This document shows positions 5,063 through 27,293 of a stretch of 33,467 nt of DNA, one piece after another (within the stretch, counting starts at the first letter, position 1; the number at the start of each line of letters is the position of its first letter). The position numbers and the translations under genes were made by a program. This DNA is from Actinomycetota bacterium (GTDB lineage: Bacteria; Actinomycetota; Acidimicrobiia; Acidimicrobiales; Ilumatobacteraceae). Where the stretch lies: positions 1 to 33,467 of the forward strand of contig JAPKZR010000287.1 in assembly GCA_026393695.1 (NCBI GenBank), given 5' to 3'. The notes under the pieces were generated by a model. The model had not been told where the DNA came from and did not search any database. It saw nothing but the letters and a program-made list of their open reading frames with translations.

Positions 5063-5274
5063 TTGCGGCCGACGCGCGAACAACAAAGGCACCGCCATGT
5101 CCAGACCCATTCAGGAGTGGGCGCTGCACATGACGGTGTCAGTGAGTGGATTGTCCGAGGGGCTGATCGGCCGGGCGGGACAAGGGACCGGCGAGCAGCG
5201 TTGCGGACAACACGAAGGCATTCAGTTGTGGTTGCATCATGACCGCGCCAATGTCACGGCGAGGTCACGTTCTG
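5063..5274. other. intergenic stretch with no supported gene
   Basis: About 210 bases lie between the convergent ends of the MscS-type gene and valS. A plus-strand frame with an ATG at 5097 runs through it into the 3' end of valS, but the peptide has no recognisable motif and no Shine-Dalgarno sequence. The minus strand has several stops here. I see no strong terminator hairpin and no tRNA-like cloverleaf. It may be degraded sequence. Confidence 0.5.
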
Positions 5275-7926
5275 TCAAACAGATGGCAAGGGTTCGCCAA
5301 GGGTGATCGAGCAGCTGAACTCGGCAGCGGTGTGGATTTCGAACTGAGCCACTGAGCCCGCGTCGCATATGTCAGCCTGGCCGGCCTGAATCGCGGCATG
5401 CAGACATTTGCGTGAACCACCAGTAGCTCGACGCCGGCGCGCTGGCTGAGCTTGGCTTCGGTCTTCGAACGGCGCACGAGGGCGACGATCTCGCATACAA
5501 CATCGAGCAGCGCCGGATCTGCTGTGGCATTGGTGTCGTGCGTTGTGTCGAGCGATGGCCACGGCGAGCGATGGATTGACCCGGTCTGCCACCAGCTCCA
5601 GACCTCTTCGGTGGTGAAGGGAATGAATGGGGCGAACAGACGCTGCAGCGTGCTGAGCGCCTCGCGCAAAGCCGCTTGAGCGCTGGCGGCTGCGGCTTCG
5701 CCGTGAGTGGCATAGGCGCGGCTCTTCACGAGTTCTACGTAGTCGTCGCAGAACCACCAAAAGAATGCTTCGGTGCGCTCGAGCGAACGTGCGTAGTCGA
5801 AACCATCGAACGCGCTGGTGCATTCGGCCACCAACGCCGACAGACGCGCCAGCATTGATGTATCAACCGGGTTGGTAGCGACGGCACTGGCGTCGGGGGT
5901 ACCGAACGTGAGCACGAACTTGCTGACGTTGAGCAGTTTCATGGCGAGCTTGCGGCCCACCTTCATCTGGTCTTCGGTGAGCGCTGTGTCGACGCCGGGC
6001 CGAGCCGAGGCTGACCAGTAACGAACGGCGTCGGTGCTGTACTGATCGAGCAACGCCATGGGGGTGACCACGTTGCCCTTCGACTTCGACATCTTCTTGC
6101 GGTCGGGGTCGAGGATCCATCCGCTGAGCGCTGCGTTGCGCCACGGCACGGTGTTGTGCTCCCAGTGGCCGCGAACAGCGGTGGCGAACAGCCATGTGCG
6201 AATGATGTCGTGGCCTTGCGGGCGCATGTCCATTGGGTACACCCGCGAGAACAGATCGGGGTCGTCTTCCCAGCGGCCAGCGATCTCGGGGGTGAGCGAC
6301 GAAGTGGCCCACGTGTCCATCACGTCGGGGTCGCGAGAACAGATCGGGGTCGTCTTCCCAGCGGCCAGCGATCTCGGGGGTGAGCGACGAAGTGGCCCAC
6401 GTGTCCATCACGTCGGGGTCGCCGATGAAGCCGTTTGCCACACCGCGTTGGTCATTGGTGAACCCGGCCGGGCAGTCGGTGGACGGGTCGATCGGTAGGT
6501 CTGATTCGGCGGGCACTAAGGGCGAGTCGTAGTCGGGGTTGCCGTCGGCGTCGAGCGAGTACCACACCGGAACCGGCACGCCAAAGAAGCGTTGACGGCT
6601 AATGAGCCAGTCGCCGTTGAGCCCCTCGACCCAGTTGGCGTAGCGGTGCTGCATGTGCGCTGGGTGCCATGTGATCTCGTCGCCGCGAGCAACGAGCGAA
6701 GCGCGCAGGTCGGCCTCACGGCCGCCGTTGCGGATGTACCACTGGCGGCTGGAAACGATCTCGAGTGGGCGATCGCCGCGCTCGTAGAACTTGACCGGGT
6801 GCATGATGGGCCGAGGCTCGCCAAGCAACTCGCCGGACTCGCGCAACATCTCGACGGTCTGCTTGTGGGCCTGCTTGCTGCTGCGCCCCACGAGTTGCTC
6901 GTAGAGCGCGATGCCTTGGGCATCGGTGATCCACGGCGCGTCGTTGATGAAGCGGCCATCGCGGCCAACGACGGCGCGATTCGAGAGGTTGAGTTCGCGC
7001 CACCAGGTGACGTCGGTGGTGTCGCCAAATGTGCAGATCATTGCGATGCCGGTTCCCTTTTCGGGATCGGCCAACGGATGAGCGAGCACGGGCACTTCAA
7101 CGCCGAACAGCGGTGTCTTCACCGTGACCTTTCCGAACAACGCTTGGTAGCGCTCGTCGGATGGATGTGCCACCAAGGCAACACACGACGGCAGCAGTTC
7201 GGGCCGGGTGGTGTCGATGATGACGTCGCCGGCACCATCGGTGCGATGGAACGCAACGTGGTGATACGCGCCGCCGATTTCGCGGTCTTCCATCTCGGCT
7301 TGAGCAACGGCGGTTTTGTAATCGACGTCCCACAACGTTGGGGCGTCTTGCGTGTATGCCTCGCCGCGCTGCAGGTTGCGCAGAAAGGCGCGCTGGCTGG
7401 CGCGGCGCGAGTGGTCGTCGATGGTTGTGTACAACAGTGACCAGTCGTATGACAGGCCGAGTCGGCGCAGCACTTGCTCGAAGATCTGCTCGTCGTGGGC
7501 TGTGAGCTCCTCGCACAACTCAATGAAGTTGGGGCGCGAAATGGCGATGGCCTGATGATCCTTTGGTGGCTCGCCGCGGAACGGCGGCATGAAGCCAGCG
7601 TCGTAGGCAACGCTTGGGTCGCAACGCACGCCGAAGTAGTTCTGCACACGACGTTCGGTGGCGAGGCCATTGTCATCCCAACCAATGGGGTAGAACACGG
7701 CCTTGCCGGTCATGCGCTGATATCGCGCAATCGTGTCGGTGTGGGTGTAGCTAAACACGTGGCCGATGTGCAGCGAACCGCTGACGGTAGGCGGTGGCGT
7801 GTCGATCGCGAATACCTGATCACGAGTGGCAGTGCGGTCGAAGCGGTAGATGTCGTCGGCATCCCATTGTTCGGCCCAGCGGGCCTCAATACCCTCGAGC
7901 GATGGCTTGTCCGGAATCGTGGTCAT
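5275..7926 (-). pseudogene. valS: valine--tRNA ligase (ValS), interrupted twice as sequenced
   Basis: This class I aminoacyl-tRNA synthetase charges tRNA-Val and edits mischarged Thr. The HIGH motif is at residues 53-56 (SGSLHIGHVF) and KMSKS is at about 582-586 of the repaired protein. The connective editing region and anticodon-binding domain are also recognisable. Two lesions break the frame. An exact 88-bp tandem duplication at 6244-6419 shifts it after DLFSR. A 1-nt loss somewhere in 5398-5411 moves the true C-terminus (AAIQAGQADICDAGS to the stop at 5275) into another frame. Removing 88 bases and restoring one gives 2565 nt, exactly 854 residues plus stop. As written, the reading frames are 5863-7926 and 5265-6323. 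It sits 30 bases after the precorrin-2 dehydrogenase gene, probably in one operon. Sequencing or assembly error is as likely as true inactivation. Confidence 0.9.
6244..6422. repeat. exact 88-bp tandem duplication inside valS
   Basis: Bases 6244-6331 and 6332-6419 are identical. The identity continues for three more bases (CGC) into the flank, so each copy begins and is followed by CGC. This is the pattern left by slipped-strand or microhomology-mediated duplication, or by a mis-assembled overlap. Because 88 is not a multiple of three, the second copy throws valS out of frame after the coding segment for MDTWATSSLTPEIAG. Deleting one copy restores the frame precisely. Confidence 0.97.
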
Positions 7927-25203: not shown

Positions 25204-26325
25204 CTACGGTACGGCCGCGGCGGCGCTGCCTGACAGTTTGCGTGAGGGGGTGACGAGCATTTCGGCCAGCGCTTTGAGGCCAGCGACGTCGTGGATGTCG
25301 GCGTCGAGCAACGGCAGTTCGGCTTCGGCTGCACCCTTGGCGAGTGCCATCAACTCGGCCATCTCGCTGCGCTCGGACGTTGCGAGAGCGAAGAGTTCGG
25401 CGTGATACGCAACGTGATCGGCGAGTAGCCCGGGCGCCAGATCGACGAAGGCTTCCGCAGGTGGCGGCAATGGGTGAACGAGGTTCACCACAACGCCGCC
25501 GAGACGGAACCCGCCGTCGCGCAATGCGTTCACGAGATGGGTCGATTCGGCGATGGCCTCGGCGCGGGGACTCGACACCAAGACGAAGGCTGTCTGTTTG
25601 TCGCGCAGCAACACCGACACCTCGGCGGCGCGAGTGCGCAGGCCCTCTTCCATCGTTGCTAACGATCGAAAGAACTCGATGGTGTCTTCGACAATCTTTG
25701 GCCCGGCCAGTTTGCGCACAAGCCACAAGAACGCCGACGACCCAGCGTTGGTGACCTTGGCGAACGAACGTGATGGCAGGGTGAGCACTCGATAGATCGG
25801 GTGGCTGAGAAACGTGACGAGCCGATCGGGGGCTTCAAGCAGATCGATCGCGTGGCGTGACGGTGGCGTGTCGATGACCACGAGGTCGTAAGCGCCGCTT
25901 GAGTGCAACTGGTGCAGACGCTCGATGGCCATGTACTCCTGAGCGCCGCCCAGCGAACCAGCAAGGCTGCGATACACGGGGTTGGCCAATACGGCTGCAG
26001 CGCGTTCGGGATCGCCGGCCCGTTCGGTGATGAGCCGATCGAAGGTGGTCTCGGCATCGAGCATCAACGCCGAGAGCGAGCCGGTGCCGTCGGTTGCCTC
26101 GCTCACTTGATGAGGCTCGTGGGCTCGCGACTCCATGTCGAGCCCGAGCGCATCGGCGAGTCGGCGGGCCGGATCTACGGTGACCACAACGACGCGTCGA
26201 CCCATACGAGCGGCAGCAATCGCGAGCGCCGCAGCAGTAGTTGTCTTGCCCACGCCACCGGGTCCGCACGTGACGATGAGCGACGAGTTGGCGAGCACGT
26301 CGTTCAGAGTTGGCTGAGCGGTCAT
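25204..26325 (-). CDS. ArsA/Get3-type ATPase, second of pair (Rv3680-like)
   Basis: This 373-residue P-loop ATPase resembles mycobacterial Rv3680. Walker A is CGPGGVGKTTTAAAL (Gly21-Thr29): the catalytic Lys27 is present, but the signature lysine that ArsA and Get3 contribute across the dimer is replaced by Pro22. VVVVTVDPARRLADALGLD follows, then a switch region VIDTPPSRHAIDLLEAPDR. The last third carries FVLVSSPRAEAIAEST and GGVVVNLVHP. In mycobacteria this partner pairs with Rv3679 in a complex linked to glycerol and nitric oxide tolerance (from memory). The start ATG overlaps the stop of the partner gene by 4 bases, implying equal synthesis. The real start is 26325 although the frame runs further upstream. 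Confidence 0.88.
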   Translation of the reverse strand: MTAQPTLNDVLANSSLIVTCGPGGVGKTTTAAALAIAAARMGRRVVVVTVDPARRLADALGLDMESRAHEPHQVSEATDGTGSLSALMLDAETTFDRLITERAGDPERAAAVLANPVYRSLAGSLGGAQEYMAIERLHQLHSSGAYDLVVIDTPPSRHAIDLLEAPDRLVTFLSHPIYRVLTLPSRSFAKVTNAGSSAFLWLVRKLAGPKIVEDTIEFFRSLATMEEGLRTRAAEVSVLLRDKQTAFVLVSSPRAEAIAESTHLVNALRDGGFRLGGVVVNLVHPLPPPAEAFVDLAPGLLADHVAYHAELFALATSERSEMAELMALAKGAAEAELPLLDADIHDVAGLKALAEMLVTPSRKLSGSAAAAVP

Positions 26326-27293
26326 CGCGCACCCACTGGTTCGACGGACAACGCATCGGCCAGCACATCGAGCTCGGCGGGTCCGAAGCGAGCCGTTGGC
26401 ACTCGCGGCAGAATCACCCGTGAGAGCGGCAACAGTTCGCCGAGACGAGTGAGCTGCCGGCTCTGTCCCTCGAGTCGTTGACGCCCGAACTCGCCCGAGA
26501 CATCGAGCGCCGCTTTTGCGGCGCGAGACAACTTCACACCCTGAGCGCGCGCTGCGGCGGTGGGCGACATATGCAATCCGGGGCGATCGGGCCAGCACGC
26601 GTTGACCACGAGCGGACCAAGTGTGAGTCCGATCTTTTCTTCGAGGTCGTAGGCGAGTTCGACCACTTCGTTCACCGGAGTCTCCTCGGCAAGGGTGACA
26701 AGCAAGCCTTGGCACCGACGCGGATCGGCGAGCATCGCAGCAACTTCGTCGGCCTGTGTGCGGATGGGCCCGCTGGCGACCACTGCCTGCAGCGCCGACG
26801 CAGACCGCAGAAACGGTGCAGCGAGTCCGGCGGGCGGAGCGTCGACGATGATCAGATCGGCGGCTTTCTCTCGATCGAGTTCTTTGATCTTGCCCAACAC
26901 CAGCAAGTGCTCAAGGCCGGGTGTGGCGGCGGCAATCACGTCGAGCGATGCGGCCGACGCTGCTTTACGCAACAATCCGCTGATGCCCTTCAGCTCGAGG
27001 TAGTCGCTGAACGCTTGGGCCGGCGGAATCGTGCGGCCCCGAATGCGACCCTTGCCTTTGAACGCTCGTAGCACTCGCTCTTCGGGGCCGATGGGCTCAC
27101 CGCCGAGCAATGGTCCCAAGCCTGGCCTGCCATCGACTGCCACGAGAAGTACATCGGCACCTTGGCGAGCGGCCACCAGTGCAAGCGCTGCGGCAACCGT
27201 GCTCGAGCCCACGCCGCCCTTTCCGGCAACGACCGTGACGCTCGCGTTGGCGACCCATGTTGGCGTCAGGCGACGAAGCGCACCACGGTCCAT
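26322..27293 (-). CDS. ArsA/Get3-type ATPase-like protein, first of pair (Rv3679-like), altered Walker A
   Basis: This 323-residue homologue of Rv3679 starts at ATG 27293, directly before the P-loop. The loop reads GKGGVGSST at residues 24-32. The signature Lys25 is kept, but the invariant Walker lysine is Ser30. Later segments fit the family: VLLVAVDGRPGLGPLL, the ELKGISGLLRKAASA helix, TPGLEHLLVLGKIKEL, the switch VDAPPAGLAAPFLRS, and LVVNACWPDRPGL. Loss of the P-loop lysine normally abolishes or strongly reduces ATP hydrolysis, so this chain may be structural or a regulator of its partner. It follows the DUF3089 lipoprotein gene by 48 bases. Confidence 0.85.
   Translation of the reverse strand: MDRGALRRLTPTWVANASVTVVAGKGGVGSSTVAAALALVAARQGADVLLVAVDGRPGLGPLLGGEPIGPEERVLRAFKGKGRIRGRTIPPAQAFSDYLELKGISGLLRKAASAASLDVIAAATPGLEHLLVLGKIKELDREKAADLIIVDAPPAGLAAPFLRSASALQAVVASGPIRTQADEVAAMLADPRRCQGLLVTLAEETPVNEVVELAYDLEEKIGLTLGPLVVNACWPDRPGLHMSPTAAARAQGVKLSRAAKAALDVSGEFGRQRLEGQSRQLTRLGELLPLSRVILPRVPTARFGPAELDVLADALSVEPVGAR

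Follow-up and report, generated by a model that had tools for sequence, protein, structure and literature searches.

Within the window, the 33,467-nucleotide stretch of DNA analyzed here, two adjacent genes encode proteins of the Get3/ArsA fold, hereafter subunits A and B (Table 1). The stop codon of A and the start codon of B overlap in an ATGA, which suggests that the two may be translationally coupled. Both proteins match the Pfam family PF02374 (ArsA_ATPase) above its curated cut-off of 24.3 bits (A, 52.8 bits; B, 106.2 bits). The Walker A motif of A is AGKGGVGSSTV, with the signature lysine (Lys25) present and Ser30 at the position of the P-loop lysine, followed by Ser31 and Thr32; that of B is CGPGGVGKTTT, with Pro22 at the signature lysine position and Lys27 present. 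An earlier note on this DNA had read GKGGVGSST in the first protein and GPGGVGKTT in the second; both readings hold, and the motif recurs in 33 genomes of the family and two others of the order.

Table 1. Positions of the A/B gene pair and of selected residues within the window.
Feature	Coordinates	Strand	Details
Subunit A, BagA-like Get3/ArsA-fold protein	26322..27293	-	323 aa
Subunit B, BagB-like Get3/ArsA-fold ATPase	25204..26325	-	373 aa
ATGA overlap, A stop and B start	26322..26325	-	read from the sequence
A Lys25, signature lysine	27219..27221	-	K in 174/174 paired A subunits; predicted to extend across into site B
A Ser30, P-loop lysine position	27204..27206	-	S/T in 34/34 clade members
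B Pro22, signature lysine position	26260..26262	-	P in 34/34 clade partners
B Lys27, P-loop lysine, predicted active site	26245..26247	-	K in 174/174 partners
B Asp51, counterpart of yeast Get3 catalytic Asp57	26173..26175	-	D throughout partners in three groups compared
A Cys233-Trp234	26592..26597	-	C in 35/35 and W in 34/35 of the Ser/Thr set; elsewhere V/L and Y/L
A Arg297, basic, presumed A-loop	26403..26405	-	R/K in 35/35 of the Ser/Thr set; elsewhere mostly F/Y/H

The neighboring genes in the window encode a DUF3089 protein, a luciferase-like monooxygenase, a NUDIX-like DUF4916 protein, an H2TH DNA glycosylase and an FMN oxidoreductase, and no ars genes were found among the neighbors scanned. 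These neighbors do not recur in G020 and G024, the two genomes from outside the genus that were read, so gene context gives no function; G020 and G024 have a downstream beta-lactamase-fold gene in common. Elsewhere in the window, the valine--tRNA ligase gene (5265-7926, minus strand) contains a perfect 88-base tandem duplication (6244-6419) that shifts the frame after about residue 532 and leaves the remainder in another frame; this is either an assembly error or a recent mutation.

The two proteins are relatives of mycobacterial BagA and BagB (Rv3679 and Rv3680). The best NCBIfam models were the BagA equivalog NF053622 for A (139.5 bits, below its 400-bit cut-off) and the BagB equivalog NF053621 for B (297.5 bits, below its 521-bit cut-off), and the top sequence matches among solved structures were Rv3679 and Rv3680, respectively, in entry 6BS3. 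AF2 monomer models of A (pLDDT 88.9) and B (pLDDT 83.1) were best matched by 6bs3_A (Z 29.7, rmsd 2.9, 305 residues) and 6bs3_B (Z 32.6, rmsd 3.2, 342 residues). In keeping with a wider definition of BagAB-like pairs, A is followed by an adjacent B, each is best matched by its own 6BS3 chain, and B lacks the signature lysine and has the P-loop lysine (Pro22, Lys27). This definition also includes an A subunit with both lysines, and here the window protein departs from it through Ser30, as do the 43 of 174 paired A subunits that have likewise lost the P-loop lysine. Adjacent A and B genes are also found in M. tuberculosis (PDB 6BS3, 6BS4, 6BS5), where BagB similarly lacks the signature lysine (Rv3680, GAGGVGKTT); BagA, however, retains the P-loop lysine (Rv3679, GKGGTGKST), so that Rv3679 has both lysines in the alignment, as the earlier note had stated.

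Get3 and ArsA are usually described as having two equivalent or near-equivalent ATP sites. The window pair shares with Get3/TRC40 the fold, the deviant Walker A motif and, in B, the switch residues, but Get3 is a homodimer in which each chain has the two lysines, whereas here they are divided between A and B. The CXXC zinc motif that Get3/TRC40 has at its dimer interface was not seen in the sequences of either subunit (none in A, and a single cysteine in B), and neither window protein gave a Pfam match to the C-terminal alpha-crystallin domain of Get3d. ArsA likewise shares the fold and the pairing of two ATPase halves, although these lie in a single chain rather than in two separate genes. 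Tandem ArsA genes from the loci examined carry the two lysines in each half; the asymmetry therefore belongs to the A/B pairs rather than to the fold.

To examine the lysines across A/B pairs, A and B frames of fetched loci were told apart by profile searches and neighbors were paired, yielding 174 unique pairs. The signature residue of A is lysine in all 174, as is the P-loop residue of B, and the signature residue of B is Ser, Thr, Ala, Pro or Val and in no partner (0/174) lysine. At the P-loop position of A, lysine occurs in 131 pairs (one with a Val-bearing partner counted among these), Ser in 29, Arg in 8 and Thr in 6. Part of this sample was found with a pattern demanding the A signature lysine, and for that part Lys25 is no independent evidence; in a recount of the 126 pairs found by homology only, the signature lysine of A and the P-loop lysine of B are again present in all 126, and the P-loop residue of A is Lys in 112, Ser in 12 and Arg in 2. 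The P-loop lysine is also present in 260/260 B-type frames, paired or unpaired; eleven B-type frames bear the signature lysine, all from distant genome-scan loci and none from A/B pairs. This asymmetry suggests one composite catalytic site, made of the B P-loop and A Lys25, with site A dispensable. In other families of the order, A and B also occur as natural fusions in one open frame (L256, 813 aa; L261, 828 aa; L292, 660 aa), with both P-loops present in the single frame, and at one locus (L237) they are adjacent yet on opposite strands rather than in tandem.

The earlier note had proposed that, with one lysine of each kind left, a heterodimer could hold one complete site, and the conservation across the 174 pairs is consistent with this. 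It had also treated the losses in A and B as a matched pair, which does not survive the survey: the signature lysine is absent in every BagB-like partner found, including those beside a GKT-bearing A and those of M. tuberculosis and Myxococcus. The asymmetric partnership is therefore the older feature. Ser30, which the note took for a derived move toward an obligate heterodimer, is from these comparisons better described as the apparent closure of a second site, itself incomplete beforehand.

In B, Asp51 and Asp152 are invariant across the three groups compared, and the counterpart of Asn281 is Asn wherever it was read. In A, the counterpart of Get3 Asp57 is Glu in 68/97 near lysine-bearing relatives and Asp in 34/35 of the Ser/Thr set, which also retains Asp151 and Asn231 (the counterpart of Get3 Asn272); Asp54 is likewise retained in site A of the Ser clade. 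Residues near-fixed only in the Ser/Thr set include Pro154, Cys233, Trp234 and Arg/Lys297 of A, whose presumed placement near the nucleotide pocket comes from the Get3 alignment; Cys233-Trp234 adjoins Asn231.

The window genome has three A/B pairs, one in the window and one each on contigs C342 and C14, and in the latter two A carries GKTT and B carries GSGG. Scanning 221 genomes of the family with a DNA pattern in which GKGGVG precedes Ser/Thr/Arg-type codons gave matches in 34, of which 33 are A subunits of the window kind and one (L056) is unrelated. A GPGGVGKT partner follows all 33 family A subunits wherever the partner was read; three relatives (G020, G135, G271) have the Ser form plus two other A-type matches each. 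A search of 397 order genomes added two window-type pairs from beyond the family (L100, L106), a Thr form partnered by GTGG (L093) and several Arg forms whose partners read GSGG, GAGG or GPGG. In the phylum at large, 246 genomes were scanned, among them some from the family and the order; outside the family, the motif matched just two proteins, neither of the window kind. The co-occurrence survey that the earlier note had called for thus finds the Ser form always with a GPGG partner within its own clade. GPGG is nevertheless ruled out as a hallmark of the Ser form, as Pro also occurs in 25/131 pairs with GKT in A. Arg at the P-loop lysine position of A was observed in both paralogue types (L095-L099, L092, L103, L104, L268, L271).

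To place these losses, a tree of A was built without the nine P-loop columns. The 34 window-kind Ser/Thr sequences form one clade with a support of 100 (SH-aLRT, quick tree); all 34 members, from several genera and in open frames that retain Lys25, read KGGVG[ST][ST]T. Ser-form pairs of two other families (L100 in G271; L106/L319 in G385) are nested within the clade of the window family, and this nesting may reflect transfer between lineages. The tree supports the earlier view that the loss in A is derived, and parsimony places five changes of the lysine state on it; a single origin of all P-loop lysine losses was rejected (p-AU 2.8e-39). A Thr sequence of family f40 (L321) lies apart from the clade in the free tree, but its grouping with the Ser/Thr clade was not rejected (p-AU 0.68) and it is therefore not counted as an independent loss. 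By this cautious count, the P-loop lysine of A was lost independently at least three times (in the Ser/Thr group, in the Arg group of family f61 and in Arg forms of the C14-type paralogue), on a tree whose deeper branching order is unsure owing to long branches. The Arg forms carry less evidential weight than the Ser/Thr form, since NosGet3d, the Nostoc Get3d (8EGK), has Arg at its P-loop and reported ATPase activity (PMC10248533).

Comparison with genus members gave dN/dS values of 0.05-0.18 for A, indicating that this subunit is under purifying selection. For B, dN/dS in that comparison is inflated because open frames run upstream over A, and the sole comparison of near-true length gave 0.08. 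A sequencing error or pseudogene as the source of Ser30 is ruled out by the 34-member clade and the dN/dS values.

We consider it likely that the two genes encode a BagA/BagB-like heterodimer of the Get3 fold with only one catalytic ATP site. The motif of Get3 is GKGGhGK[ST]; its second lysine crosses the dimer interface and assists catalysis, and its P-loop lysine contacts the beta-phosphate of ATP in its own chain (PMC10248533). In the proposed mechanism, ATP would be gripped by the P-loop of B (Lys27 and Thr28) and hydrolyzed with the aid of B Asp51 and Asp152, and A Lys25 would cross the interface and complete site B. The mirror site on A would be unable to work in the usual way, with Ser30 in place of the P-loop lysine and B Pro22 in place of the crossing lysine, so that opening and closing of the dimer would be driven by one site and A would serve as activator and structural half. 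The direct observations are the two sequences, how they are conserved, the clade and the predicted folds of the monomers. We infer the heterodimer in the window organism from homology to 6BS3, constant pairing and the fusions (L256, L261, L292), and single-site catalysis is likewise our inference; by default, the pair would be taken for a Get3-type carrier or a stress-protection ATPase. Constancy of both site-B lysines and repeated loss of the site-A lysine are expected under a single-site model. Against it, site A, with Asp151, Asn231 and Asp54, may still hold nucleotide, B might act without Lys25 much as McdA-type proteins may, and conservation is not proof of catalysis. Altered lysines have precedents in Nostoc Get3d, in BcsQ (RGGVGTT; PMC10248533, PMC9178275) and in McdA, which lacks the signature lysine (SGGQGKT, Table 1 of PMC9178275), but neither source presents these proteins as A/B gene pairs that split the two lysines between unlike chains.

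Site A could instead have been repurposed, binding nucleotide tightly without hydrolysis, or binding another ligand, and so regulating the dimer; the clade-specific Cys233, Trp234, Arg297 and Pro154 would then balance the lost lysine. We regard this as possible, though on balance improbable. Within the Ser/Thr clade these four hardly vary, and other residues replace them elsewhere, while Asp151 and Asn231 stay, and near-fixation of new residues speaks for constraint rather than drift. Their position in the pocket, however, is taken from the Get3 alignment, and other parts of the chain also hold clade-specific residues that are nearly fixed, so the pattern may be a sign that the subunit diverged as a whole. 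That site A is a distinct regulatory pocket that senses something besides ATP turnover, leaving the other half as the sole motor, seems to us unlikely.

A further reading, to which we give little credence, is that B is a homodimeric ATPase that works without a signature lysine, with A as a partner that neither catalyzes nor contributes Lys25. All cis residues are present in B and McdA provides a precedent, yet the invariant signature lysine of A over all pairs would be left unexplained, A-B fusions and constant pairing favor contact between A and B, and the solved M. tuberculosis relatives, Get3-like A and B, share one structure entry. It is very improbable that Ser30 arose by drift in an A copy that is decaying after duplication: the two other GKT pairs kept in the genome speak for this, but the purifying selection indicated for A argues against it, as do the 34 clade members, spread over several genera, whose frames are open and whose Lys25 is retained.

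If the single-site heterodimer is correct, a dispensable site that has been lost repeatedly, paired with a composite site that has been kept, would amount to a natural experiment on whether the Get3/ArsA fold needs one ATP or two. For mycobacterial BagAB, the same model predicts that the BagB site alone would be needed, completed by the signature lysine of BagA.
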